Source: Leptolyngbya sp. NIES-3755 (GTDB taxonomy: Bacteria > Cyanobacteriota > Cyanobacteriia > Leptolyngbyales > Leptolyngbyaceae). Taken from it: a stretch of 64,000 nt of DNA. This document shows, piece by piece, positions 1 to 13,032 of this stretch. The position numbers and the translations under genes are program-made. The notes beneath the pieces are model-generated. The model was not told where the DNA came from and did not search any database. It saw nothing but the letters and a program-made list of their open reading frames with translations. The stretch spans positions 1,311,030-1,375,029 of the forward strand of contig AP017308.1 in the NCBI GenBank assembly GCA_001548435.1, in the 5' to 3' direction. Numbering within the stretch: position 1 is the stretch's first letter; every line of letters begins with the position of its first letter.

Positions 1-1257
1 GCAAATGGGACGGTTATAGTTCAAATCACTGGTAGCACTCCGAAGCCTTCTGAAGATGACAATGATAGTACCTTTGACACAGGAGAGTTCTTTACGGTTT
101 CTGTGCGCCAAGGCGGTCAAGAACTAGAACGCTTCGAGCATTTAACCATGAATTCCGAAGCAGAAACGAGTGTTGCAGACTATGTGGTGACTGCACTGCA
201 ATCTTCTCAATATCTTGATGTTGCACATGTTGATCCAACTGTGGGTCGCCCTTTGAGCCGCAGACCGTCAAATGGTTTCTATGAAGTCAGTCCGCCTCCG
301 ATGCCCTCGAATCCGCAGCGGTTCTCGAAGGATGTGCATGGAAATCGTGACGATCGTACTGGGGTACGGGGATTGTTCGAGATTGATGAAATCACGATCA
401 TGGCTTGCCCTGACTTGATGCGCGTCTATGAAGCAGACTTGATGAACATTGATCAAGTTCACGGCATCATGGAATTGATGGTGAGTCTGTGTGAAGGTGC
501 AGCCGATGGAGATGTTCCGAATCCGCCAAATCGTATGGTGATTCTTGATCCACCACCCGATCGCATTAAGCCTCAAGAAGTGAGCCGCTGGCTGACTGAA
601 GATTTTAATCGTCGTTCTCCCTTTGCTGCGCTGTACTATCCTTGGATTACTGTGCCCAATCCTCGGAATGGAGGAAAGCCGATCGCAGTTCCACCATCAG
701 GACACATGGCAGGAATTTGGAGCCGCACAGACGAGACTCGCGGAGTGTACAAAGCTCCTGCAAACGAGACTCCACGCGGTGTGATTGGTCTTGCTTACGA
801 CTGTAACTTCCGTGAACAAGAACTGCTCAATCCATTAGGAATTAACTGTCTGCGTCCTTTCCCGAATCGCGGTATCCGTGTCTGGGGTGCAAGAACCTTG
901 GCAGAACCGAGCGATACACAATGGCGCTACATCAATGTTCGTCGTTTGGTGAGCTACATCGAGAAATCGATCGAGCTTGGCACACAATGGACGGTGTTTG
1001 AACCCAACGATCGCGATCTGTGGGAACGGGTGAAGCGGACTGTGAACAATTTCCTCACTCGGTTGTGGCGTGAAGGTGCATTGTATGGTGCATCGCCTTC
1101 GGAAGCATTCTTTGTCAAGTGCGATGAAGAACTGAACACGCCAGATACGATGATGCTCGGTCGTCTCTATGTTGAGATTGGAGTTTGCCCAGTGCGTCCG
1201 GCTGAATTTGTGATCTTCCGCGTCAGCCAGTGGTCGTCACAGGATGATGAAGGCTAA
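1..1257 (+). CDS. Contractile tail sheath protein (5' truncated by window)
   Basis: The frame is open from the first base, so the gene begins upstream; the GTG at 103 is internal and is not the true start. The product is the C-terminal part (at least 418 residues) of a phage-tail-sheath family protein, the outer sleeve that contracts to drive the inner tube through a membrane. The C-terminal half has the family pattern: a glycine-rich surface segment (SGHMAGIWSRTD), then RGIRVWGARTL, YINVRRLVSYIEKSI and a final FRVSQ strand that would join the inter-subunit mesh. Three tube-fold genes follow on the same strand. Only one sheath is visible; others may lie upstream. The family call is firm, but assignment to the extracellular or thylakoid-anchored subtype is inference. 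Confidence 0.93.
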   Translation, partial: ANGTVIVQITGSTPKPSEDDNDSTFDTGEFFTVSVRQGGQELERFEHLTMNSEAETSVADYVVTALQSSQYLDVAHVDPTVGRPLSRRPSNGFYEVSPPPMPSNPQRFSKDVHGNRDDRTGVRGLFEIDEITIMACPDLMRVYEADLMNIDQVHGIMELMVSLCEGAADGDVPNPPNRMVILDPPPDRIKPQEVSRWLTEDFNRRSPFAALYYPWITVPNPRNGGKPIAVPPSGHMAGIWSRTDETRGVYKAPANETPRGVIGLAYDCNFREQELLNPLGINCLRPFPNRGIRVWGARTLAEPSDTQWRYINVRRLVSYIEKSIELGTQWTVFEPNDRDLWERVKRTVNNFLTRLWREGALYGASPSEAFFVKCDEELNTPDTMMLGRLYVEIGVCPVRPAEFVIFRVSQWSSQDDEG

Positions 1258-1266
1258 TTGAATTCA

Positions 1267-1289
1267 AGGGGTGAACGGTGTTTGCCCCT
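1267..1289 (+). promoter_or_regulatory. Hairpin between sheath and tube genes
   Basis: AGGGGTGAA (1267-1275) pairs with TTTGCCCCT (1281-1289). This gives nine pairs, two of them G-T, around a five-base loop, ten bases after the sheath stop. The run that follows (CACTTCTTAAC) is only weakly T-rich, so it fits an mRNA-stabilising or attenuating hairpin better than a strong terminator. It may help set tube output relative to the sheath. Confidence 0.4.
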
Positions 1290-1317
1290 CACTTCTTAAC
1301 ATTAGGAGACTCGACCA

Positions 1318-1887
1318 ATGCCAATGCCAGGTTTTACGACGAATACCAGTCGTTATTACATTGAATTTGATGGGATGACGGGCTTAGAAATTAAGAGTAT
1401 GACTGAACTCTCTTATGAAGCCAAAGTCACCGGGAACCAGAAAGCGATCGCTGCAACTTACAACGGTGCAGGCGGAATTGTAACTCAACGCCAAACCACA
1501 TCGGGCGGCTATGAAAGCAATCCAACGATGAAGATCGAAGTGTTCCTCAGTGGACATCCGAAGAGTGCAAGCTATCGGCTTTATCAATGGTTCCAAGCTT
1601 GTATGCCGACCAGTGATGGCGGAGATGGCGAATGGGCAAGCAATCGGAAAGCGGCTTCGGTTGTCGTCTATGATGCGGATGGTAAAACTGAAGTATTGCG
1701 ATGGAACCTCGATCGAGCTTGGATCAAAAAATACTCGATCGGTGGTGCAGATGTGACTGCGGGCGATTTAGCAGTCGAAACCTATGAATTTGTGGCAGAA
1801 CACATTGATAAAGTGACTCAAGTTCAAGCATCGAATGATGGACGGATTGCAAGCTCACAGCCTGTCACGAGCCAAAACGCTTTCTAA
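1318..1887 (+). CDS. Contractile injection system inner tube protein 1 (T4 gp19 family)
   Basis: The product is 189 residues and belongs to the phage tail tube (gp19/Hcp-like) family, whose hexameric rings stack into the inner tube inside the sheath. Evidence is the N-terminal pattern SRYYIEFDGMTGLEIKSM, the glycine-rich loop around residues 40-55, the segment SYRLYQWFQACM, a VVVYDADGKTEVLRWNL strand pair and the closing AGDLAVETYEFVAEHI. Paralogues at 1912 and 2527 share this layout. An AGGAGA ribosome site lies just upstream of the ATG. Being first behind the sheath, it is the best candidate for the major tube subunit (inference from gene order). Confidence 0.9.
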   Translation: MPMPGFTTNTSRYYIEFDGMTGLEIKSMTELSYEAKVTGNQKAIAATYNGAGGIVTQRQTTSGGYESNPTMKIEVFLSGHPKSASYRLYQWFQACMPTSDGGDGEWASNRKAASVVVYDADGKTEVLRWNLDRAWIKKYSIGGADVTAGDLAVETYEFVAEHIDKVTQVQASNDGRIASSQPVTSQNAF

Positions 1888-1911
1888 TTAATTATCGCAA
1901 GGAAAACAAGC

Positions 1912-2451
1912 ATGGTCGCATCCTTTGATCTGAACTTTCAGAGTCGCCGTAATGTGATTGAGTATCTGACACTCAGTCGGTTCTACTTTGAAATTGATGG
2001 TAAAACTCAGTTATTGATTGCAAAAGCGAGCGGGATCGCAATCTCGATCGAGACAACGGATCAATCTAAGCCGATCGGTTCTACGAAAGGCGCGGGCGGG
2101 GGTGCAAGAACACAAACGCAAGCAACCCCGACGGGTGTTTCAACTTCTAATTTGTCGTTGGAATTTGTTTCAACTGCGGATAACAATACGTTGCTCGATT
2201 GGTATCTCAGATGTCATCCGAAGCCACGTGATGGGGGTCCGAGACGGCAAATGGAACAACGATTGGCTTGCTCTTTAGTGTTCTATAACCAAGATGGAAC
2301 AGAGGGCGCTCGTTGGAACGTAGTTGATGCGGTTCCTGCGAAGTACAAAACCACGAAGGTGAGTGCGGATAGCAATGAGTTGTTCCGAGAAACGATCGAT
2401 ATTGCTCATGCTGGACTCGTTCGCGTCAATGTGGCGCGTGGTGCGAGTTAA
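1912..2451 (+). CDS. Contractile injection system tube protein 2 (T4 gp19 family)
   Basis: The product is 179 residues with the tube fold: SRFYFEIDGKTQLLIAKASG at the N-terminus, a glycine-rich loop (GAGGG), LLDWYLRCHPK, a LVFYNQDGTEGARWNVVDA strand pair and a C-terminal LFRETIDIAHAGL strand. It lies 24 bases after tube gene 1, with AAGGAAAA as a likely ribosome site. Paralogous tube proteins in these systems can form the first rings on the baseplate rather than the bulk tube; which role applies here cannot be decided from sequence. A terminator-like hairpin follows the gene. Confidence 0.88.
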   Translation: MVASFDLNFQSRRNVIEYLTLSRFYFEIDGKTQLLIAKASGIAISIETTDQSKPIGSTKGAGGGARTQTQATPTGVSTSNLSLEFVSTADNNTLLDWYLRCHPKPRDGGPRRQMEQRLACSLVFYNQDGTEGARWNVVDAVPAKYKTTKVSADSNELFRETIDIAHAGLVRVNVARGAS

Positions 2452-2480
2452 ATCACTGTCATCCTGTTGAATTTGCTGGT

Positions 2481-2514
2481 GCTTGGCGGGGTTTAGTTCG
2501 CCAAGCTTCTTTTA
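2481..2514 (+). terminator. Rho-independent terminator or attenuator after tube gene 2
   Basis: GCTTGGCG (2481-2488) and CGCCAAGC (2499-2506) form a perfect eight-base stem with a ten-base loop, followed by TTCTTTTA. It lies between two same-strand tail genes, so it probably trims transcription after the highly needed sheath and tube genes and lets a fraction continue into the assembly genes. Confidence 0.7.
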
Positions 2515-2526
2515 CATTCAGAGCTT

Positions 2527-3024
2527 ATGAGACCCAAAAATCAATCTAATCTGTTCCCCGAAGTTCTAACGACTTCCCGCTTTTATGTCGAATTAGTGTT
2601 AGATGGTAGTACCTCAGTCGATGCCTATTTTATGGAATGCAAAGGGCTGAAGTACACACAGGACGTGATCGAAGCTTGTGAAGTCACTCCACAGCGATGG
2701 GGTCGATCGACGGCTCCCGGTCGGATTGTGCGGACAAAGATTCCAGGTGGATACAAAGTTGGAAATCTTACTCTGAAACGAGGAATGACGAACTCTCTAT
2801 CGTTTTGGAAGTGGATTGAAGCGGTGCAGAATGGGAATTGGCGGACTCAATGTCGAGATGGATCTTTAGTAATCTATCGGCAAGATGGAACACAGGGGGC
2901 GAGATTTCAATTTCTCCGAGCGTTTCCGGTCAGCTATAATTTTGCAGGCAGTAACGTAACTGCGAATGAATTAGCGATCGAAGAATTAGAATTAGCGATC
3001 GAAGAATTTAAGCGAGTGAGTTAA
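2527..3024 (+). CDS. Contractile injection system tube-fold protein 3 (T4 gp19 family)
   Basis: The product is 165 residues. Tube-family features are SRFYVELVLDGSTSVDAYF, the segment MTNSLSFWKWIEAVQNGNW, LVIYRQDGTQGARFQFLRA and the C-terminal NELAIEELELAIEEFKRV. It resembles the protein at 4267 more than the two tubes upstream. By analogy with Afp5-type proteins it is more likely a tube-initiator or adaptor ring than the bulk tube; that is inference. The last codons carry a 20-base direct repeat (2968-2987 and 2989-3008) built around CGATCG. The stop is two bases before the next ATG, so the genes are probably translationally coupled. Confidence 0.86.
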   Translation: MRPKNQSNLFPEVLTTSRFYVELVLDGSTSVDAYFMECKGLKYTQDVIEACEVTPQRWGRSTAPGRIVRTKIPGGYKVGNLTLKRGMTNSLSFWKWIEAVQNGNWRTQCRDGSLVIYRQDGTQGARFQFLRAFPVSYNFAGSNVTANELAIEELELAIEEFKRVS

Positions 3025-3026
3025 TT

Positions 3027-3341
3027 ATGATGCAAACAGAATTCGAGTTTGTGCTTCCAAAAGGCTATCTAGACAGCGATGGGAATGTTCATCGTAAGGG
3101 AATCATGCGTCTGTCTACCGCAATGGATGAGATTGTTCCAATGCGCGATCCGAGAGTTAAAGCGAATCCAGCTTATGCAACGGTGATCATTCTGTCGCGG
3201 GTGATTACTGTTCTAGGAGCATTGGAAGAAATGACTCCAGCGATCGTGGAAGGTTTTTTTGCTTGTGATTTGAACTATCTGCAAAACTTCTATCGTCAGA
3301 TTAATGACCTAGAAGAAGTGCCTGAACTACAAGCGGTCTAA
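3027..3341 (+). CDS. Tail assembly chaperone-like protein 1
   Basis: The product is 104 residues and mostly helical. It starts with TEFEFVLPKGYLDSDGNVHRKG, then IMRLSTAMDEI and a helical stretch through YATVIILSRVITVLGAL. The neighbour at 3401 has the same layout (LPKGFVDEQGQVHREGIMRLATARDEL), so the two are paralogues. The pattern matches phage tail assembly proteins of the Mu gp41/gpE-like chaperone group, which guide tube and tape-measure assembly and are absent from the finished particle. This family call is from memory and moderately sure. It ends before the CPHC motif seen in its partner, and no -1 frame ORF follows it. Confidence 0.7.
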   Translation: MMQTEFEFVLPKGYLDSDGNVHRKGIMRLSTAMDEIVPMRDPRVKANPAYATVIILSRVITVLGALEEMTPAIVEGFFACDLNYLQNFYRQINDLEEVPELQAV

Positions 3342-3400
3342 ATTCATGTTGAGATCAGAAAAAGAGCGACTATCATAGTTCCAATTTCTGATTTTCCTAG

Positions 3401-3775
3401 ATGATGAGCTTACCAATCACTGAGTTTAAGTTTACGCTGCCCAAAGGATTTGTAGATGAACAAGGACAAGTCCATCGGGAGGGCATCATGCGGCTTGCAA
3501 CTGCCAGGGACGAACTGAGTGTTACGCGAGACCTGCGAACTCAAGACGATCCTGCCTATAGCGTTTTAGTGCTGCTGTCTCAAGTCATTACTCGTTTAGG
3601 CACATTTGCTTTTATTTCACCTGAGCAATTAGAAAACCTGTTTAGTCTGGACTTAGCGTATTTGCGCGAGTTCTATAACCGTATCAATCAACAAGGCGAT
3701 GCTCACATTCCAGTTGATTGTCCGCATTGTCAAGAGCAGTTTCAAGTGGAGTTAGCACTATCGGGGGAGTTCTGA
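3401..3775 (+). CDS. Tail assembly chaperone-like protein 2 with C-terminal CPHC motif
   Basis: The product is 124 residues and paralogous to the protein at 3027, with a C-terminal extension that contains CPHC (VDCPHCQEQFQVEL), half of a zinc-ribbon-like site. The zero-frame product ends at the TGA at 3773-3775. Six codons before the end the reading frame enters a run of five G residues (3763-3767). A stem-loop begins at 3776, and the -1 frame continues into the DUF6760-type ORF. A -1 slip on the G-run would give a fusion of about 173 residues, as in the G/GT and E/E' tail chaperone pairs of long-tailed phages. Confidence 0.72.
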   Translation: MMSLPITEFKFTLPKGFVDEQGQVHREGIMRLATARDELSVTRDLRTQDDPAYSVLVLLSQVITRLGTFAFISPEQLENLFSLDLAYLREFYNRINQQGDAHIPVDCPHCQEQFQVELALSGEF

Positions 3776-3921
3776 GCTACCCTTCGGAACAGTTGCACGA
3801 AGAGGTAGCATTGATCGCGCTGCATTTCCATTGGTCGCTGGAGCAGATTTTGAGCTTGGAACATCACGATCGACAGCGCTGGGTAACAGAAATTGGCAAC
3901 TTACGACAGAAGCTTGGTTGA
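3718..3921 (+). CDS. DUF6760-type contractile injection system protein, possibly made by -1 frameshift
   Basis: The conserved part starts at about 3772 (LSYPSEQLHEEVALIA) and continues HFHWSLEQILSLEHHDRQRW to the stop at 3919-3921. This matches the small DUF6760-type proteins of injection-system clusters, which I recognise by the E-E-V-A...HFHW...LEH...RW pattern. No good start exists: only TTG at 3718 or 3727 without a ribosome site, or CTG at 3772 two bases behind GGGGGAG. The coordinates given are the longest open frame. The conserved region begins exactly where the zero-frame chaperone stops. The product may therefore be the C-terminal part of a chaperone fusion rather than a free protein. 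Confidence 0.6.
   Translation: MSALSRAVSSGVSTIGGVLSYPSEQLHEEVALIALHFHWSLEQILSLEHHDRQRWVTEIGNLRQKLG
3763..3809 (+). promoter_or_regulatory. Candidate programmed -1 frameshift signal
   Basis: In the frame of the chaperone the codons read TCG GGG GAG TTC TGA (3761-3775). The GGG codon can re-pair one base upstream on GGG. Six bases after the GAG codon a stem begins: GCTACCCTTCG (3776-3786) pairs with CGAAG (3798-3802) and GGTAGC (3804-3809), with A3803 bulged and an 11-base loop. The spacing of five to nine bases and a stem of this size are what -1 frameshift sites usually show. The heptamer is not a perfect X-XXY-YYZ, because the A-site codon GAG would move onto GGA. Confidence 0.55.
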
Positions 3922-3994
3922 TTCGACTTTTGGCTACTATTCGAGAATCGATTCGTTGGTCTAGACTGACGAGCAATTCTCTATTCTTGGTTCT

Positions 3995-4258
3995 ATGTCT
4001 GCGGTTCCCCCGATTCCACCTCAGAAAGTTGAGCTTCGTCGATCGATTACTCCGATCGCTTATCCAGTTGCGCCTGCGGGCTTTTGTGCGCCTGCAAGAA
4101 CATTAAGTCATCGCTCTCAGAAAGAACATAATCTGATGGCGGCAATGGTTGGAACGGTGTTAAAAGATCCATTGTTAATGAGGCAATTGAGCGATCGAGT
4201 TTATGAATTAATGCAAGAAGAACTGATGCGCGATCGCGATCGATACAGTCGTTATTAA
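3995..4258 (+). CDS. Small injection-system protein with conserved C-terminal helix
   Basis: The product is 87 residues. The first half is proline-rich and basic, with no recognisable domain. Residues 65-87 form a predicted amphipathic helix that starts LSDRVYELMQEEL and ends in acidic and arginine residues (RDRDRYSRY). The pattern L-x3-[IV]-Y-x-L-[LM]-x3-L-x2-[DE]-R-[DE]-R-[HY] recurs at the extreme C-terminus of the 1384-residue protein encoded 560 bases downstream. Similar short proteins occur in other eCIS clusters as far as I recall, without a known function. It may be a docking or baseplate adaptor piece. Confidence 0.65.
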   Translation: MSAVPPIPPQKVELRRSITPIAYPVAPAGFCAPARTLSHRSQKEHNLMAAMVGTVLKDPLLMRQLSDRVYELMQEELMRDRDRYSRY

Positions 4259-4266
4259 TCAAACCT

Positions 4267-4791
4267 ATGTTCTCTCGACCCAGACCTCAAATTCGTCTTC
4301 CTCAACGCAGGCAACCCGCTAAATCTCGCCCTACGACTAGCGATCGACTCTCTCATGCGTTTAACTATGTGACAGCGAACCGTTTCTATGTCGAAATGGA
4401 AGGGACACTCACCGCGTGTTTCTCTAGTTGTCAGGGATTGAGCGCTAAGAACAATACAACTTTGCTAAAAGAGGGTGGTTCTAATACACGCCAGCAGGTT
4501 TTACTCGGACCTGTGAGCTATACAGAAGTCACGTTGAGTCGTGGTATTACAGATAGTTTGATGTTCTATCAGTGGTTAGAGACATCGTTTAGTGGAGGAA
4601 AGAAGTTTCAGCGGCGAGATGCGACGATTCTATTGTTTAATCAGGCTGGAGAAACGATGCAAGCTTGGACATTAGTTTCAGCCGTTCCTGTGGGATGGAA
4701 AGCACCTTCGTTCCAAGCAAGTTCAACGAATTTAGCGATCGAAGAATTGAGTCTTGCCTTTGAAGAACTCAAAGTGGTCAAAAGAAAGTAA
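4267..4791 (+). CDS. Tube-fold protein 4 with basic N-terminal extension (T4 gp19 family)
   Basis: The product is 174 residues. The tube domain starts near residue 35 (NYVTANRFYVEMEGTLTACF) and contains VTLSRGITDSLMFYQWLETS, ILLFNQAGETMQAWTLVSA and a closing LAIEELSLAFEELKVV. It is preceded by about 30 arginine- and proline-rich residues that the other three tube paralogues lack. This gene is separated from the main tube genes and sits next to the large disordered protein. A specialised ring at the baseplate end, in the manner of Afp5, is more likely than the bulk tube (inference). Confidence 0.82.
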   Translation: MFSRPRPQIRLPQRRQPAKSRPTTSDRLSHAFNYVTANRFYVEMEGTLTACFSSCQGLSAKNNTTLLKEGGSNTRQQVLLGPVSYTEVTLSRGITDSLMFYQWLETSFSGGKKFQRRDATILLFNQAGETMQAWTLVSAVPVGWKAPSFQASSTNLAIEELSLAFEELKVVKRK

Positions 4792-4812: not shown

Positions 4813-7800
4813 ATGGCGGAATTTCCTGATAGTTCTGATGCTCGTGATTTGTCTGAAGAACAATTAGAACAGGAACCCTTGGGGATTAAACGTCCTTTGG
4901 GGATTCCGTTGCTTCAACCTAAGTTTATTACACCACTGGGCGCGAAACCGTTAGGAATGCTGAAAAGTAATCCGTTTGATGGCATTGCACACTATCAATC
5001 GATCAATCAGCAATTTCAGAATTTTCCGATTCAACAAAGCGAGAGCATTGATTCAGCAGAGCTAGTTGATGAAAATTTCTCGATCGTTGAACCCGAAGTT
5101 GCTCAGACGAATATTTTAGCGAATGAAGTTGTACAATCACAGTCTGAAGAGCAAATACTGGAGGCTTCTGAGATTGAATCGTCGATCGTACAATCAGAAC
5201 CTCAAGCTTCATTACAATCCAATGAAGTATTTAGCATTCAACAAAAAGCGGATAGTTCTGAATCAAGCAATGAGCAAATAGAAGACACTGCACTATCTGA
5301 TAATTTTGCAATTCAGAACAAGCCACAAGAAGATTTTGGAGAATCACAAATTGAGCCGATTCAGCAATTTGTGGGGACTGAAAATAATACGATCGAGCCT
5401 CCTGATTTAGTACAGACAAATCAGCTACAAGTGATCGAACCGATCCAGCAACTTGTAGAACTTGATAGTGATGCGATCGAGCCTCATCTACCCCAGATAG
5501 ATCGGTTTGAAAATACATCACAAGCTTCATCACCGCCAGTTCAGCAAGCAGTAGAAAGTCCAAATCTTTTAGAATTTGAGAACTCAACCGAGCCAACACA
5601 AGTCGATAGTATTCAACAAAAGGTTGATAGTTCTCAATCAGAAGCTTTGAGAAATAAAATTGTACAGTCAGCCGCAGCGGAGACGATTACAGAATCATTT
5701 AGCGTAGATACTTTTACATCTCATGACAACATACAAGCTTCGAACCAAACGATCGGGCAATTTTCGGAGTTTGCAAGCTCAAATCTTTCACAATCTGAAC
5801 CCGCAGCATTATCACTAGAATCAAATACGATTCAACAGAAAACCGATCCGATTCAGCAATCTTTAGAAGCTACAGACTTCGAGGAACCCATCGCACCATT
5901 ACCAGAAAATATTATTCAAAAGAAAGCTAATTCTGATCATTCTCAAGTTTGGAGTGGTGACACTGAACTATCGTCAACCGAACACATAGAACTTTCCCAA
6001 CCTTCGATCGAGCAATTCTCTCAGCCAGATATCTCGATCGACGTTCCAGCAATTCAACCAGCAGTAACATTACCAATTGAGCCTGGACTATCAACGAGTG
6101 TAGCTGAGACTAATCCCCCTAATGTTGCATCTGATGAGAGCATTAAGGCGAATGAAGCTCCGACTTTAAGCAAAATTGAGACATTGCCTGTTCAGCGATC
6201 GACAACCGCCAAACCTACACTTGGTCAATCGCTCAGACAATCTTTTCAAAGTCTCACTCAACGATTTCAGCAGAGTTTTTTCAACAAGCCAGATCAGAAC
6301 CGTGAAGCGATCGCTCCTACTCCTGATTCAACAACCTCTGATAGTGAGCCGATTCAGCAATTCGCTCAGCCAGATACTGATGGAAATTTAGATGAAATCG
6401 AATCACAAGCTGATCAAATCATCGAGCAATCACTAGAACTCTCATCACTTGATTCTCACACAAGCTCAGAGTTTGTTGATGTTCAATCCTTAGAAAGCGG
6501 TTTCACCCCGGAGTCACCCGTTCAAGCATTCGGCATAGAAGAACAACTGCTAGAACAGTCACCAATTAATTCGCAGATAGACATAGAATCTGTTAATCCT
6601 CAAGCTTCAGAGGGTGAATCTATTTCTGAGTTGCCTGTTCAAGCATTCAGCACAGAACAATTATTAGAACAGTCATCGATTGATTCGCAGGTGGATGAGC
6701 TTATTGATGCTCAGTCTTCAGAAAGCATTGCTATCTCTGAAACACCGATTCAAGCATCCAGCAAAATACCAAATATTGAAACGATAATCAGCGAGAATGA
6801 TGCTCTAGATACGAACGAGGCACTTCAAGAAGCGATTTATTCTGAAACTGCTACAGAGAGTCCTGTCCAACGGTCTGTTGAACCTACAATTTCGGAAAGT
6901 TTGATTTCTGAATCGATTGGAGTGCAGACTCAGGAGAATGGAAGTACAAACGGTGCTTTGAATGAAAGCTCTGTTGCAGATCGCGAGATTACTCCGAACA
7001 GTGCAGTGATTCAGCAGTTTGAAAAGGCGAATCATGATGCTACAGGTAATTTTCAAGATAGCAAAGCTCCACAATCAATCTCTACGATCGCATCTCAAAC
7101 ATCCATTCAGCCTCAATCGTCTTTCACTGAAACTCCAATCCAGCAATCATCGGCGCATCGAACAGACGCACAGGTTGAGCAGTTTGATAGTACAGATTTG
7201 AGGTCAGAAGTTTCAACTATCCAAACTAATACGATCGAGCCTCTAATTCAGCGATCGACAATTTCAGAGCAAGTTCTTGGATCTGCTTCAGAAGAAATTG
7301 ATAATAATTCAATGACCGTTGAAGGCAATCCTGAAACAGCCATCCAAGACAGTGTTCCTGATTTAACGATTGAATCCCCGATCGCGCAATTCAAGGTTGA
7401 AGCAGATTCGGGAGGGAATGATTATACGATCGTCGATCGCGACATTTCAGAAATTGCAAATGAGTCCAAATTGCTTGATGATGAAAATTCGCAAGCACTC
7501 CCAGAAGCAACGATTCAGCGATCAATTCCGAATTCTCCTGTGCAGTTAGATATCAACGAAGCGATCGAGCCTTCGCCTGAAAGTTTGTCTGGTCTGTCCA
7601 GCTTCCAAACTCCAATCCAAGCATCATCTGAAGGCGACATTAAGCAGACAGAGCATTTACAAAGTGATACTGATTCTGTTCTAGATGTAGTGTCTAATCA
7701 GTCAGTTTTTCCAATTCAGCAAACTAAAAACCCTTTATCAATTGAGCAACGACCAACTGAAGTTATCTCTAATTCACCTCAATCATCAGCAATTCTAGAA

Positions 7801-8967
7801 CAAGCTTCAGAAGAAGTTGATTCTATTGGCGAATCGCTTTCAACGATCAAAACATCGGATCTAGTACCGCTTCAAACAAAGCAAATTAATAGCTCTGAGT
7901 CCGTTCAAGGAGATCAAGGTATTTCACTTGAAACGGAAGCAACTCAACGATTAAATGATTCTGGTCTACCTTTATTCTCCCAAAGTGAAATCAAGGAAGC
8001 CCTCACTCCCACTGAAATTCCTGTTCAGAGTTCATTTTCTGATATATCCAGCAATCCTTTACAAGCTAAGACAATTGAAACCGATTCAGTAGAAAATCTA
8101 GAGTCGATCGATACTTCCAAGTCTCAGGCAACAATTCAGCGATCGACTGATACTTTGCAATTTGCTGAGACTATACCCACAAACAAAGAAATAACTTCGA
8201 TCGATGTCCAACCCATCCAACAGTCATCAGATCCAGAACCAACTGTTGCCCAACTTTTCGCAAAAGGTAATTTACCTCAACTCCCTTTAAGTCTTCAGCC
8301 TCGCATTCAAAAGCCATTGGGCATTGTTCAACCCTTGATTGCTGAGACGAATCAACCAGGAATTGAACCCACTGTTGCCCAGCCTAAATTAATGGAATCA
8401 ACTGATGATTTCACCTGGCTCGATTCGGATCTCGATCAAATTGACAATACTCCCGACTCTTGGGACAGTATCGAAGAACTTTTAGGAGAATCAGAGCCAC
8501 CGCAGACGGATTGGGATTTTGATCAAACTATCCCTTCATCAAGTTCACCGACGATTCAGAGAACGATCGATCCGCAATTTGAGAACAATGAGCCAGTTAG
8601 TGTCAGAGTTCCAGAAGTCCAGCCGATGCAATTTGCGATCGACTACGCCGAATTTAGCGATCGCGACTATAGTGATACAAGCTCCAGTGATGCTCCCATT
8701 CAAGCTAAAAACTATGAATTCATTTCTAAAAACTCAGTCAACCCAGAAACACTTGGCAAAGTTCCTGGAGAGATAAACTATGCAGACAATGTACTCTCTG
8801 CCGTAGTGGATGAAGCTCTAGATAAAACATTGCCGAAAGAAGAAACGATTAATGATGCCAACAATCTGGAAGTTCTAGCTCGTGAGATTTATGGACTATT
8901 GAGGCAACGACTAGAAATTGAGCGAGAACGACATGGAACACACTACTCTGGTCGTTTGCCCTGGTAA
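4813..8967 (+). CDS. Giant low-complexity injection-system protein with repeated IQ-type motifs
   Basis: The product is 1384 residues, rich in S, E, Q, I, T and D, poor in aromatics, and probably disordered for most of its length. A short hydrophobic motif recurs roughly every 30-60 residues, about 30 times, as P-[IV]-Q-[QRA]-[SKF] (PIQQS, PVQRS, TIQRS, SIQQK, PIQAS). A unit of about 48 residues is tandemly duplicated around residues 568-660. Both ends carry PLGI/PLGM elements (residues 22-50 and near 1170). The last 33 residues are a conserved helix and tail that ends GRLPW. No catalytic domain is visible. The length suggests a tape-measure or scaffold role, but it lacks the usual long hydrophobic helices, so I leave the function open. 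Base composition matches the neighbours. Confidence 0.75.
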   Translation: MAEFPDSSDARDLSEEQLEQEPLGIKRPLGIPLLQPKFITPLGAKPLGMLKSNPFDGIAHYQSINQQFQNFPIQQSESIDSAELVDENFSIVEPEVAQTNILANEVVQSQSEEQILEASEIESSIVQSEPQASLQSNEVFSIQQKADSSESSNEQIEDTALSDNFAIQNKPQEDFGESQIEPIQQFVGTENNTIEPPDLVQTNQLQVIEPIQQLVELDSDAIEPHLPQIDRFENTSQASSPPVQQAVESPNLLEFENSTEPTQVDSIQQKVDSSQSEALRNKIVQSAAAETITESFSVDTFTSHDNIQASNQTIGQFSEFASSNLSQSEPAALSLESNTIQQKTDPIQQSLEATDFEEPIAPLPENIIQKKANSDHSQVWSGDTELSSTEHIELSQPSIEQFSQPDISIDVPAIQPAVTLPIEPGLSTSVAETNPPNVASDESIKANEAPTLSKIETLPVQRSTTAKPTLGQSLRQSFQSLTQRFQQSFFNKPDQNREAIAPTPDSTTSDSEPIQQFAQPDTDGNLDEIESQADQIIEQSLELSSLDSHTSSEFVDVQSLESGFTPESPVQAFGIEEQLLEQSPINSQIDIESVNPQASEGESISELPVQAFSTEQLLEQSSIDSQVDELIDAQSSESIAISETPIQASSKIPNIETIISENDALDTNEALQEAIYSETATESPVQRSVEPTISESLISESIGVQTQENGSTNGALNESSVADREITPNSAVIQQFEKANHDATGNFQDSKAPQSISTIASQTSIQPQSSFTETPIQQSSAHRTDAQVEQFDSTDLRSEVSTIQTNTIEPLIQRSTISEQVLGSASEEIDNNSMTVEGNPETAIQDSVPDLTIESPIAQFKVEADSGGNDYTIVDRDISEIANESKLLDDENSQALPEATIQRSIPNSPVQLDINEAIEPSPESLSGLSSFQTPIQASSEGDIKQTEHLQSDTDSVLDVVSNQSVFPIQQTKNPLSIEQRPTEVISNSPQSSAILEQASEEVDSIGESLSTIKTSDLVPLQTKQINSSESVQGDQGISLETEATQRLNDSGLPLFSQSEIKEALTPTEIPVQSSFSDISSNPLQAKTIETDSVENLESIDTSKSQATIQRSTDTLQFAETIPTNKEITSIDVQPIQQSSDPEPTVAQLFAKGNLPQLPLSLQPRIQKPLGIVQPLIAETNQPGIEPTVAQPKLMESTDDFTWLDSDLDQIDNTPDSWDSIEELLGESEPPQTDWDFDQTIPSSSSPTIQRTIDPQFENNEPVSVRVPEVQPMQFAIDYAEFSDRDYSDTSSSDAPIQAKNYEFISKNSVNPETLGKVPGEINYADNVLSAVVDEALDKTLPKEETINDANNLEVLAREIYGLLRQRLEIERERHGTHYSGRLPW

Positions 8968-8994: not shown

Positions 8995-9600
8995 ATGCCA
9001 CTTTTTCGACCTGTTTTCTTTCCCCCCAATCCTGTTTGGAATCGAACTTGGAATCCATCGCCTCAACCTAAGCAGCAACCCTCTGGGAGATTGCAGAAAG
9101 CGAGATTGTTGCTCTCTCCGAATGAAGCCGCGAGACTTGGGGTTCGAGGTGCAGCATCGGGCAACGCGGGATCGATCGTGTTTCAATACAATCCAACTGA
9201 ACTGAAGTTCGATCACAGTCTCGAAACGAAAGCCGAAGGTCGTACCTATACAGGTTTGCGTAAAACCAGTTTTGCTGGACCGAATCCGACAAAGCTGACG
9301 ATTAGTAACATCACGTTTGACACCTTTGAGCAAGGAATTAGTGTAAAGACGCGCTACATTGATCCATTGCTCAAATCGATGAGACTGAGTTCTGGAATCC
9401 CTACTGGATACATGATGAGAACTCCTGTTAGACGACCCCCTATCTATACGTTCTGCTGGGGTCAAAATCGTTATCTACGCTGCTTTGTGAAACAGATTGA
9501 CTATAAATATACTTTGTTTCTTCCAAATGGCACTCCGGTGAGAGCAGTCGCAAATTTGTCTTTGGAAGAAGCAACGCAATTTGTGAAAGCGAAAAAGTAA
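8995..9600 (+). CDS. Contractile injection system tube initiator / baseplate hub protein (Afp7/LysM-type)
   Basis: The product is 201 residues. After a proline-rich start, residues 50-100 show the family pattern IVFQYNPTELKFDHS...GRTYTGLRKTSFAGPNP...LTISNITFDTFEQGISV. This is followed by PPIYTFCWGQNRYLRCFVKQIDYKYTLF and LPNGTPVRAVANLSLEEA. This is the protein that links the inner tube to the spike in tail-like systems, often annotated as CIS tube protein. I see no C-terminal LysM repeat, so this is a short version. It sits 27 bases after the giant protein and 18 bases before the spike gene, as expected for a hub module. Confidence 0.85.
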   Translation: MPLFRPVFFPPNPVWNRTWNPSPQPKQQPSGRLQKARLLLSPNEAARLGVRGAASGNAGSIVFQYNPTELKFDHSLETKAEGRTYTGLRKTSFAGPNPTKLTISNITFDTFEQGISVKTRYIDPLLKSMRLSSGIPTGYMMRTPVRRPPIYTFCWGQNRYLRCFVKQIDYKYTLFLPNGTPVRAVANLSLEEATQFVKAKK

Positions 9601-9618: not shown

Positions 9619-11910
9619 ATGGCGAATCTTGTTGCAAGCCTTCGACTCGAACTGGGTGGAGTGCCTGCGCCGAACAATTTGATCGAAGATATTTTGCAAG
9701 TCTCTGTTGAGGAAAGTTTGCATCTTCCAGCGATGTTCACGTTGGTGATTAGCAATCCTTACGCCCCCGGAAATGCAGGCGATCAACCTTGGCAACATGA
9801 GTCTTTATTTCAGTTTGGGCAAACGGTTCGGATTGGATTTGGTGAAAGTGCTGTAGAGCTAGTCGATCGAGAAAATTCAAACTATGTGATCGAAGGGGAA
9901 ATTACTGCGATCGAAGCTCATTTTACGGCTGATAGTCGCGCTCCGATCGTGGTTCGTGGCTATGATTGTTCACATCGCTTGCATCGGGGAAGACATAATC
10001 GATCGTTCCAGAACATGACCGATAGTGATATGGTTCGCAAGATTGCTCATGAGGTGGGAATTCCTTGCGGCTCGATCGAAACCACACCAGGTCCACATGG
10101 CTATAACGATATCAATGGGGTAAATGGCTATGTGTTCCAGGAGAATCAAACCAACATGGAATTTCTGCGAGAGCGGGCTTCACGAGTTGGATTTGAGTTC
10201 TTTGTCGCAGATGGTAAATTACACTTCCGTAAGCCTGCTGCGAACAATACTTTGAATTTGCGCTGGTTGCAGGACATTACCAGTTTTCGGGCGCGGTTGA
10301 GCAGTGCAGAACAAGTAAGTTCCGTTGAAGTTCGGGGCTGGGATTATAGTCAGAAACAATCGATCGTTGCAGTTCGCCATAAAGAGCAGGTTGTAACAAC
10401 GACAAAACAAGGAAATGGCACACAAACCAGTCAGGCTTTTAATGGTAAGCCGAATGCTCCTAGCATGATTGTGATTGATCAACCTGTGTTCACACCACAA
10501 GAAGCTGAGATGATGGCTCAGGCGTTGGTAGATGAACTGGGAGGAGAATTTATCTATGCGGATGCAAGAGCGATCGGGAATCCTAAAATTCGCCCTGGAA
10601 GATTGATCGAACTGAATGAGATGGGCAAGTATAGCGGTCGGTACTATGTGACTGAGACGCGCCATCTCTATAGCAATGGAACTTACACAACAGAGTTTAA
10701 TGTTCGCGGATTGCGGGGTGGTGATTTATTAAGTACGCTGAACTCACAACAACGACTGCAACCTGGACAAACTCACTTAATTGGAATTGTGACAGACAAT
10801 CGTGATCCGAAAGGCTGGGGACGGATCAGAGTGATGTTTCCGACGCTTTCTGAGCAGCATAATAGCTATTGGGCGCGGATGGTACAGGTTGGAGCAGGAG
10901 CCGATCGAGGTTTTGATTGTTTACCAGAGATTGGCGATGAAGTGCTCGTTGCATTTGAACATGGGGACATTCATCGACCTTATATTTTGGGCGGAGTTTG
11001 GAACGGAAAAGATAAAACACCCGAAGCGATCGAGGATTCGATCAATGCTCAAGGCAATGCAACTGGAGCCGTTCGACTTCGCACATTCAAAACACGAGTC
11101 GGACATCAACTGCAATTTTCAGAAGAAGATCCGCTACAAAGTTCTAATGCTCAAACTGCGATCGCAGGAACAGAACTTTTCGGTAATGGTTTAATGCGAT
11201 CGCTCAAAGGAATCCATCTCAAAACTGCCAACAATCATGAGATTGATCTGTGTGATCAAGATCGGTCAAACTTGAATGGTGTGCGACTAAAAACAGCACA
11301 AAACCAGAAATTAAGTTTGTCTGATTCTCCGCAAAATCCAGGAATTGCACTGCATAGTTCGATTGGTCAAAGTATTAGCTTAATCGATCGTGCTTTAACA
11401 GTTTCAACCTTACCTCAAATCAATTTAAACACAGGGGGTCATGTCGTTATTAATGCGGGAGCAAATTCGATTTCACCGACTGGTTTATCAACAGCAAAAC
11501 AGTTTCTTTCATTAGGAGCGCAAGCGAAAACACCTGGTGCATTGAATACATTTATGAGTTTGTTGCCTGGGAAAATTGCGAATTCGAGCAGCACGATCGA
11601 GCTTTCTGCGGGGTATGTGAATCAGTTCTCGATTGGAGGAGTGACGATCGCGGCTGGACAACTTTCGACCGCGAGAATTTTACCTGAACAAACTTATTTC
11701 AATAGTCCCGGTATTACGATTAGTGCCTCTCCCTCTGCTGGAGCGCTGGACGTACCCACACCTGGAATGCTCAATCTAGAGGCGACGACAACGATTCGGA
11801 TTAATGCTACGACTTCGGTTGTAATTACTGCCCCATCGATTACGTTGAATGGAGCCGTCAACATTGTCGGATCGCTATTGGTGAACGGTAGACCGCCCAG
11901 ATTTGCTTAA
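9619..11910 (+). CDS. VgrG/Afp8-like spike protein
   Basis: The product is 763 residues, the trimeric spike that caps the tube and pierces the target. Residues 1-370 resemble the gp27-like hub (FVADGKLHFRKP, SSVEVRGWDY, PGRLIELNEMGKYSGRYYVTETRH). Residues 375-470 are the gpV/gp5 OB-fold (IGIVTDNRDPKGWGRIRVMF, WARMVQVGAGADRGF, EIGDEVLVAFEHGD, RPYILGGVWNG). The remainder is rich in T, S, I and N and repetitive like a beta-helical needle; it ends LLVNGRPPRFA, a typical finish for such spikes. No enzymatic or toxin domain follows the needle. It is the last injection-system gene visible; neither a PAAR tip nor baseplate wedge genes follow. Confidence 0.92.
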   Translation: MANLVASLRLELGGVPAPNNLIEDILQVSVEESLHLPAMFTLVISNPYAPGNAGDQPWQHESLFQFGQTVRIGFGESAVELVDRENSNYVIEGEITAIEAHFTADSRAPIVVRGYDCSHRLHRGRHNRSFQNMTDSDMVRKIAHEVGIPCGSIETTPGPHGYNDINGVNGYVFQENQTNMEFLRERASRVGFEFFVADGKLHFRKPAANNTLNLRWLQDITSFRARLSSAEQVSSVEVRGWDYSQKQSIVAVRHKEQVVTTTKQGNGTQTSQAFNGKPNAPSMIVIDQPVFTPQEAEMMAQALVDELGGEFIYADARAIGNPKIRPGRLIELNEMGKYSGRYYVTETRHLYSNGTYTTEFNVRGLRGGDLLSTLNSQQRLQPGQTHLIGIVTDNRDPKGWGRIRVMFPTLSEQHNSYWARMVQVGAGADRGFDCLPEIGDEVLVAFEHGDIHRPYILGGVWNGKDKTPEAIEDSINAQGNATGAVRLRTFKTRVGHQLQFSEEDPLQSSNAQTAIAGTELFGNGLMRSLKGIHLKTANNHEIDLCDQDRSNLNGVRLKTAQNQKLSLSDSPQNPGIALHSSIGQSISLIDRALTVSTLPQINLNTGGHVVINAGANSISPTGLSTAKQFLSLGAQAKTPGALNTFMSLLPGKIANSSSTIELSAGYVNQFSIGGVTIAAGQLSTARILPEQTYFNSPGITISASPSAGALDVPTPGMLNLEATTTIRINATTSVVITAPSITLNGAVNIVGSLLVNGRPPRFA

Positions 11911-11998: not shown

Positions 11999-12319
11999 GT
12001 GAAATTTTCGGACGATCGAGCAATTTTAGAAGCTCATTTCGCGACGCTTCACCTTGCTTCTAACGCTTCACTTTCAGAAGTCAAAGCCGCTTATCGTCAA
12101 TTGGCAAGACGATTTCACCCAGATTTAAACCCAAATTATGCAGATGCGACCGAGCGATTTAAGTCGATTAATGTTGCTTACGAAGCGATTAGCCAGTATT
12201 TGAACGATCGGATTCAAGAACCGCCCAAAAAATATGTAGAATGCGATCGCGTTCCGGTTGAGTCGAACGAGATTTATAACAGTTTCGTCGATGCTTTTAT
12301 GGGCAATACTCGACGTTAA
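11999..12319 (+). CDS. Small J-domain (DnaJ-like) protein
   Basis: The product is 106 residues. The J-domain spans residues 10-70, with HPD at 40-42 (RRFHPDLNP) preceded by EVKAAYRQLARR and followed by FKSINVAYEAIS. J-domains stimulate the ATPase of DnaK/Hsp70 and deliver clients. The last 30 residues are not recognisable. The start is GTG with AGAGGA eight bases upstream. It lies 88 bases behind the spike gene on the same strand, with no clear terminator between, so it may be co-transcribed with the injection-system operon. A link to sheath or spike folding is only a guess. Confidence 0.85.
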   Translation: MKFSDDRAILEAHFATLHLASNASLSEVKAAYRQLARRFHPDLNPNYADATERFKSINVAYEAISQYLNDRIQEPPKKYVECDRVPVESNEIYNSFVDAFMGNTRR

Positions 12320-12402: not shown

Positions 12403-13032
12403 ATGCTTCAGCGTCGGCATTTTCTTCAGGCAGCAACATCCGCTCTGGTAACTTTGGGAATTGGACAGTTTGAGATCCAACAGCATGGAGCGAACTATGC
12501 AAAAGCGATCGCACAATCGACTCCACGCAAAAGGGCACTGCTAATCGGCATCAATGAATATCCTGGCGATAGTGGTATCCAAGGCGAATGGAGCCGATTA
12601 CAAGGCGCAGTCACCGATACAATGCTGCAAAAAGAACTATTAACTCATCGATTTGGATTTGGTGAGATTAGAACCTTAGTGGATGATCAAGCGAAGCGAT
12701 CGAGAATCTTAGAAGAAATCGAAGACTTGGTACGATGGGCAAAACCGGGTGATGTGGTAGTCATTCACTATTCTGGACATGGATCAACCGTGGTCGATCC
12801 TCACCAAATTTGCAAAGACGGTGTGAATGGGACGATCGTGCCGATTGATTCAGAGTTCAAAGTTCAAGGGGGACAAGTTCAAGACATCACATCAGGAACC
12901 CTCTTTTTGCTGATGTCTGCGATCAAAACTGAGAATCTGACCGTTGTGCTTGATAGTTGTTACTCCGGGGCAGGAGTACGAGGAAATTTAGTATTTCGAT
13001 CGCGTCCGGGGCAAGTAGAATTCCGAGACTAA
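12403..13032 (+). CDS. Orthocaspase, N-terminal p20 fragment (Tat signal; ends at in-frame stop)
   Basis: The product is 209 residues of a peptidase C14 (metacaspase-like) protein. Residues 1-37 look like a twin-arginine signal (QRRHFLQAATSALVTLGIG), so the enzyme would be exported. The catalytic pair is present: His126 in HYSGHGS and Cys186 in LDSCYSGAG, with the usual RALLIGINEY start of the fold. A TAA at 13030-13032 ends the frame 23 residues after the cysteine. The same frame reopens at once and continues with the rest of the family protein (13039-14508). I read this as a nonsense mutation, or possibly a sequencing error, in a 701-codon gene. The fragment lacks the p10-like region and may be inactive. 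Confidence 0.8.
   Translation: MLQRRHFLQAATSALVTLGIGQFEIQQHGANYAKAIAQSTPRKRALLIGINEYPGDSGIQGEWSRLQGAVTDTMLQKELLTHRFGFGEIRTLVDDQAKRSRILEEIEDLVRWAKPGDVVVIHYSGHGSTVVDPHQICKDGVNGTIVPIDSEFKVQGGQVQDITSGTLFLLMSAIKTENLTVVLDSCYSGAGVRGNLVFRSRPGQVEFRD
13030..13032 (+). other. In-frame TAA interrupting the orthocaspase gene
   Basis: The codons GAC TAA GGC lie in the same frame as both halves of the protein. One base change (for example to CAA, AAA or GAA) would restore a continuous product. No frameshift or insertion is needed to explain the split. Confidence 0.8.

Follow-up and report, generated by a model that had tools for sequence, protein, structure and literature searches.

A very probable phage-type programmed -1 ribosomal frameshift between a tail-assembly chaperone and DUF6760 in a cellular contractile injection system

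Long-tailed phages make their tail chaperones by frameshifting, as in lambda G/GT and P2 E/E'. The lambda slip site is GGGAAAG, unlike the GGGGGAG of the locus described here, and E. coli dnaX differs from this locus in its A-rich site, its shortened product and its efficiency of about 50%. P2-derived R-tailocins may use the P2 frameshift, and the claim of novelty made below is therefore limited to eCIS/tCIS loci.

Phage P2 (gpE/gpE+E', AF063097) shares with this locus a gene that follows the sheath and tube genes, a -1 extension with an FHW motif, a subsequent putative tail length determinator gene (T) and, on shallow alignments, an E' profile that resembles DUF6760. It differs in its slip site, a T-run (TTTTTTG) well before the stop, in an E protein that does not align with the chaperone studied here, and in being described without a hairpin (PMC3091744). 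The shift was also -1 in eight P2-like phages, with the T-run visible in the stretch examined of seven. The logic is likewise that of lambda gpG/gpGT, where chaperone and extended chaperone are made in a set ratio, given as 30:1, and bind the tape measure protein according to a review (PMC5009743), although lambda is a phage rather than a cellular injection system and its T domain differs. The same review describes for dnaX the combination of an upstream Shine-Dalgarno element, a slip site and a hairpin that is also seen here. The tail assembly genes of corynephage phi16, as presented in PMC5506516, resemble our locus in a predicted site with GGGGGAA, an internal GAGG and downstream RNA structure; phi16 is a siphophage, however, and its structure is called a pseudoknot, whereas a simple bulged hairpin was seen here. 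Throughout the SEA-PHAGES frameshift set, one motif class has the form GGGGGAA, and the second tRNA is suggested there to re-pair by way of a G-U pair (PMC10885494). T4-like phages are said, in a title cited in PMC13222765, to make their chaperones without frameshifting, and T4-like baseplate hub assembly proteins are among the closest viral models in fold to the chaperone described below. Our literature search, with preprints and supplements outside its scope, found no earlier report of frameshifting in eCIS/tCIS loci. The word "frameshift" was absent from the main texts of the seven CIS papers searched, and "chaperone" occurred once each, in another sense, in the main texts of PMC10598620 and PMC10020575; these terms do occur in PMC8528098 (Serratia eCIS variant) and PMC13195805 (carotovoricin).

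The window, as we call the whole stretch of 64,000 nucleotides from Leptolyngbya sp. NIES-3755 that was analyzed, contains a contractile injection system, in which Pfam matches place sheath, tube, CIS_tube and spike genes together. Two small chaperone ORFs sit among the tube genes, and comparison of related sequences indicates that the second of them very probably undergoes a phage-type programmed -1 ribosomal frameshift. The features concerned are as follows:

103..4791, + strand, surrounding block of injection-system genes (Pfam)
103-1257, + strand, sheath (Pfam)
1318-1887, 1912-2451, 2527-3024 and 4267-4791, + strand, four gp19/tube-like ORFs (Pfam)
3027..3341, + strand, paralogous chaperone of 104 aa without frameshift extension (alignment to the second chaperone)
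3401..3775, + strand, tail-assembly chaperone ORF of 124 aa, 0 frame, ending GGG GAG TTC TGA
3746..3751, + strand, probable 5' stimulator, a Shine-Dalgarno-like GTGGAG that precedes the slip site by 11 bases
3763..3769, + strand, slippery heptamer G GGG GAG (conservation across loci)
3766..3921, + strand, -1 frame with DUF6760 extension, conserved part from Tyr 3778 (PF20546)
3773..3775, + strand, 0-frame chaperone stop, position varying among homologues
3776..3786, + strand, 5' arm of the probable stimulatory hairpin (folding and comparison)
3798..3809, + strand, 3' hairpin arm, in which A3803 is bulged (folding and comparison)
4813..8967, + strand, ORF of 1384 aa, putative tape measure and candidate client of the chaperones
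8995-9600, + strand, CIS_tube protein
9619-11910, + strand, VgrG/spike-like protein

The two chaperones are 51% identical over residues 7-96 (3027-3341 compared with 3401-3775), and a search of NCBIfam with three proteins of the window gave no match. A shorter chaperone paralogue without DUF6760 was present upstream of the frameshifting one in many, not all, cyanobacterial loci. Just downstream of the injection-system genes of the window lies a caspase-domain (Peptidase_C14) protein (12403-13032), adjoined by a DnaJ-domain protein (11999-12319).

In the 0 frame, positions 3761-3775 read TCG GGG GAG TTC TGA. The initial annotation had the chaperone ORF entering the G-run (3763-3767) six codons before its stop; the ORF does run into these bases, but the GGG codon at 3764-3766 is the third before the stop. 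An open -1 frame spans 3718 to 3921; it matches DUF6760 (PF20546, E 6.3e-12, residues 21-65 of 67) with 45.8 bits, the curated cut-off being 27. By codon count, the predicted fusion would comprise 122 chaperone and 51 -1-frame residues, 173 in total, with a predicted mass near 19 kDa. The -1 frame had also been described as lacking any good start codon. Its openness was borne out, whereas it is not fully devoid of possible starts, since TTG at 3718 and 3727 and CTG at 3772 lie in the window.

Conservation of this junction was assessed in a first set built with the chaperone as query from the best 80 of 92 loci found in named genomes, to which 29 loci from related genomes were added (58 searched, 26 with a match, 31 places, of which one at a contig end yielded no locus and one was the window). 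This gave 110 loci with a DUF6760 match, window included, L001 and L002 (the window itself) being left out. The chaperone was placeable in 108 of the 110 loci, and DUF6760 stood in the -1 relation in 107 of these 108, the remaining one (L008) deviating because its chaperone frame changes upstream. In 108/110 loci GGGGGA stands nine bases ahead of the position that corresponds to base 3772, compared with nine occurrences in 78,530 flanking bases. The two exceptions were L046 and L031, the latter a degraded copy. L046 (Prochloraceae, 2824-2898) has GGAAAAG in place of GGGGGAG and keeps both frame relation and stem; it could still be slippery, with tRNA-Lys moving from AAG to AAA. L028 has no chaperone match upstream, and in L008 (the same plasmid place as L126, Kovacikia) as well as L135 the junction itself is intact and -1, the change of chaperone frame further upstream probably being a one-base indel. 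The 0-frame stop was found at five places relative to base 3772 (-2, +1, +13, +22 and +34), a spread of up to 36 bases. The stop thus moves while slip site and stem stay put, as would not be expected if a start/stop overlap were what is conserved. Alignment of the junction over cyanobacterial loci, as proposed in the initial annotation, therefore returned what had been expected there of a frameshift site, namely a conserved G-run, a conserved stem and a mostly start-less -1 frame; homologues with their own ATG and ribosome site, or with an unconserved G-run and stem, had been named as the contrary outcome, and in cyanobacteria both elements are nearly invariant.

For a second draw, 386 evenly drawn cyanobacterial genomes were searched in two ways, at the RNA level with a covariance model built on the junction (75 bases) and at the protein level with PF20546. 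The protein search found 36 places in 33 genomes and the RNA model 41 places in 37 genomes. By comparison of the tables by eye, all 36 DUF6760 places were the 36 best of the model (E 1.1e-10 or better), and the five remaining places were weak (E 1.5e-4 to 9.2e-4). Because related loci served to train the model, and coding conservation is part of it, this agreement shows constancy, not independence. From the second draw 59 loci were fetched, giving 33 unique junctions, of which eight were identical to the first set (window included) and 25 were not. All 33 carried GGGGGA, a retention across a phylum-wide draw by which chance overlap or a pseudogene was ruled out; 32 were measured as -1, and the 33rd (L135) is -1 at the junction after its upstream frame change. 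Two DUF6760 places each occurred in genomes G216, G165 and G403, with the element at all six.

The stem came out as initially proposed, with 3776-3786 pairing with 3798-3802 and 3804-3809 and A3803 bulged. Folded alone, the hairpin (3776-3809) has -15.5 kcal/mol, and the single stretch from the window folds no better than shuffles (z -0.82, 40/200 shuffles as good), so that comparison was used and significance comes from there. All 98 unique junctions have the bulged A. Across the family ten pairs of the stem are conserved, and an eleventh lies outermost (3775 with 3810); in the window this last one is A/A and unpaired. The hairpin begins 5-6 bases downstream of the slip site, with a spacer of six bases that is three bases longer in L115/L170 and L121 in the covariance-model alignment.

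Selection on the RNA was apparent from codon usage in 96 unique junctions, as codons with G > 100 occurred only in the slip site, the stem arms and the upstream element, the next highest value being 87. Gly at the slip site was GGG in 100% of cases compared with 15% usage, and the two -1-frame Gly codons over the slip site also exceeded 100. Similar preferences were found for Tyr TAC (98% against 37%), Pro CCC (86% against 27%), Val GTA (100% against 22%) and, twice, Glu GAG (92% and 99% against 27%). Changes were counted on a 96-locus tree of the upstream chaperone DNA, at the third codon base wherever 90% or more of the rows share the residue. Slip site and outer stem had 0-2 changes, the inner stem had 8-11, and positions outside the element had 11-38. 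Each base between 3763 and 3768, both included, changed at most once, and there were 11 changes for the stem Pro, 8 for the first stem Glu and 20 for the Ala of the outermost pair.

Compensatory changes in the stem had been suggested as a check and were observed. The outermost pair, in which a Ser/Gly/Arg codon contributes its first base and an Ala codon its third, 35 bases further on, was formed in 84/98 junctions (G-C 34/34, A-T 44/55, C-G 5/6, T-A 1/3) and covaries; the 14 junctions in which it is unformed include the window. Over 11 pairs in the 62 less similar junctions, 95.5% of cells pair, and 38 double-change cells were observed against 11.5 in shuffles (0 of 500 reached 38) and at most nine in slid versions. 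A U-A replaces a C-G pair within the stem of L089 and L138. A sign test on the tree gave about five same and no opposite changes among seven supported pairs for the outermost pair (p 0.06), and one same and one opposite, hence no support, for the inner pair 11-29. Two control columns were included. The first was neutral, and the other, unpaired, gave about no same and four opposite of seven; since this control tracked lineages, in the opposite sense, lineage effects are possible in this test, which holds too few supported pairs.

Upstream of the slip site, GTGGAG is a probable 5' stimulator of the frameshift. Its Glu codon was GAG in 88% of the 96 unique junctions compared with 27% usage (G=128), and pairing of this zone with the 16S tail reached z -9.9 against synonymous shuffles, a high score, yet some of six control segments also departed (range -4.6 to +4.3). 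Of 98 junctions, 67 contain GGAG, GAGG, AGGA, AGGT or GGGG between -30 and -11, a stretch of 20 bases, and 31 contain none of them.

The arrangement extends beyond cyanobacteria. Among 34 plasmid records with a DUF6760 match, 17 were read with frames assigned by eye, 13 of them non-cyanobacterial; 14 of the 17 remaining records are further copies from Streptomyces clavuligerus. GGGGGA at the chaperone end together with DUF6760 in the -1 frame was found in 12 of the 13, from Rhodococcus, Embleya, Kitasatospora, Streptomyces (five), Streptantibioticus, Paraburkholderia, Rhizobium and Paenibacillus. The covariance model, run without L219, recognized Paraburkholderia, Rhodococcus and Paenibacillus, all with E-values no worse than 7.3e-12 although one or two pairs are broken in each, was marginal for Kitasatospora (0.001) and did not clearly match the others. 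A search of 50,697 phage records for DUF6760 (tblastn, E<=1) gave no match. Two IMG/VR contigs labelled viral (L158, L159) carry the same frameshift element; as the ORFs of L159 form a contractile injection cluster (sheaths, tubes, LysM), its viral label looks doubtful.

Three other explanations were weighed against the frameshift, and start codons bear mainly on one of them, translational coupling, in which ribosomes would stop and restart nearby in the -1 frame with the G-run as Shine-Dalgarno sequence and DUF6760 as a separate small protein. The plasmid loci lend it some weight. Three bases after GGGGGA, a GTG, CTG or ATG overlaps the stop in seven of eight Streptomycetaceae loci (Embleya having none), as does an ATG in Rhizobium, and most of these loci had no good match to the covariance model. 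An own start, one of the signs initially held to speak against a frameshift, is thus present there, but GGGGGA is kept; coupling may operate in these groups. The case is clearer in the archaeal injection system of Haloferax larsenii (L124), where DUF6760 has its own ATG in an ordinary ATGA overlap and there is no G-run, so that the initial expectation fails at this one locus. In cyanobacteria a near start was found in 12 of 97 junctions (ATG at the base-3772 position in eight, GTG at -3 in four), whereas most have ATA, GTA, CTA, TTA, ATT, ACA, GCT or the like at the former position, all of them poor start codons. No ATG, GTG or TTG was present from -15 to +3 in 85/97 junctions or anywhere in the open -1 frame before the conserved Tyr in 52/97, and in four junctions this frame opens only 15 bases before base 3772. 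Annotated DUF6760 starts on plasmids include ATT (Pseudanabaena), ATA (Nostoc) and CTG (S. cadmiisoli) as well as, in Rhodococcus, a TTG cutting into the conserved part; on a Brasilonema plasmid the gene is absent from a gene table stated to be incomplete. Coupling would further leave unexplained the exact phase of the G-run in the 0 frame, the invariant A after it, the hairpin beside the supposed start and a stop that shifts around a fixed slip site and stem, and we regard it as improbable.

Nucleotide conservation by itself names no function, and hairpin and G-run might therefore be a conserved regulatory RNA, such as a processing site or an attenuator, with DUF6760 as a vestigial frame. The -1 frame, however, looks selected as protein: DUF6760 was matched by 41 of 41 aligned members (best E 3.9e-17), outside the stem its third bases vary but its residues are retained, and its start coincides exactly with the element, which makes this reading very improbable. 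Least probable of all, to the point of being nearly negligible, is transcriptional slippage on the G-run, giving messages of changed length. A homopolymer run is present, but five Gs are short compared with the runs of 9 A or T of which the review text speaks (PMC5009743), slippage of this kind would have no need for phase, hairpin or upstream element, and L046 retains frame relation and hairpin with its altered heptamer.

The identity of the chaperone was supported by phrog_508 ("tail assembly chaperone"), matched by the window protein at E 2.2e-6 and by all 41 aligned homologues (best 2.4e-10). PF10109 (P2 E / Mu 41 family) was weakly matched by 24/41 homologues at E<=1 (best 0.0011) and not by the window protein. 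The AlphaFold model of the chaperone (pLDDT 81) had the HK97 chaperone 2ob9 as best PDB match in Foldseek (prob 0.99, E 0.016, TM about 0.5); among viral models, T4-like baseplate hub proteins and an uncharacterised phage protein were best, and Mu FS-gp41 ranked 22. A sequence search of the PDB with the chaperone profile gave nothing useful. For the extension, the AlphaFold model of the -1 frame was poor (pLDDT 66.5), and PF06528 (P2 GpE') was matched by 18/41 members at E<=10 (best 0.012), the window protein not among them. An hhalign comparison of DUF6760 with P2 E' reached prob 87 and E 3.7e-6 over 30 columns of shallow alignments, against prob 0.1-0.5 in three cross-comparisons, among them 0.1 for the alignment of P2 E with the chaperone.

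Downstream of DUF6760, a large ORF was found in 19/37 loci, window included (L115 and L199 being the same place), and was not seen in the other 18, often where no CIS_tube lay within reach or the stretch was cut. It encodes 255-1673 aa and mostly lies between the tube initiator and CIS_tube, a position that corresponds to the Cis6 slot; Cis6 is reported to form a trimer that plugs the spike and sends a loop into the tube (PMC8894136). A short conserved C-terminus (ID..LA..V.R.L.RRL.IE.ERRG) follows a variable N-terminal part, which in the 1384 aa of the window protein is accompanied by 28 IQQ-like motifs. A PDB sequence search with the C-terminus gave no link. The ORF was noted at the following places:

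Window 4813-8967; L199, L202, L205, L206, L208-L211, L213-L215
Further loci: L114, L116, L118, L120, L127, L159

We put this protein forward as a putative tape measure and a candidate client of the chaperones. A wider reading, which we offer tentatively and would not favour outright, is that injection systems of the DUF6760 class inherited a P2-like length-control module consisting of the chaperone, its extension (DUF6760 as E') and an unrecognised tape measure in the Cis6 slot.

The programmed frameshift itself may be pictured as follows. Most ribosomes would end at the chaperone stop, and a minority would be held by the hairpin, helped by anti-Shine-Dalgarno contact. On these, tRNA-Gly would leave its GGG codon and re-pair with the GGG that starts one base earlier, and tRNA-Glu would shift from GAG to GGA, where it forms a G-U pair, yielding the chaperone-DUF6760 fusion. 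This requirement for a G-U pair in A-site re-pairing on GGGGGAR is a counterpoint to the frameshift. By analogy with phages, DUF6760 would be the counterpart of P2 E' and lambda T, and chaperone and fusion, in a set ratio, would cover a protein of the tape-measure type and deliver it to the tube subunits during assembly.

If the frameshift is real, a classic phage recoding event would have been carried into a cellular machine, DUF6760 would have its first proposed role, and the odd or missing annotated starts of its gene would be explained. Particle assembly, including that of the Streptomyces particles reported without a tape measure gene, would become testable by silent mutations. On the wider and more tentative reading, the class would span cyanobacteria, actinobacteria, proteobacteria and Bacillota, the C-terminus of the Cis6-slot protein would plug the spike and its N-terminus would span the tube. 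In that case assembly would be set by the frameshift ratio, and particle length would follow the size of the Cis6-slot protein, which would explain the Streptomyces system, where a tape measure gene is reported absent although the particles have one uniform length.
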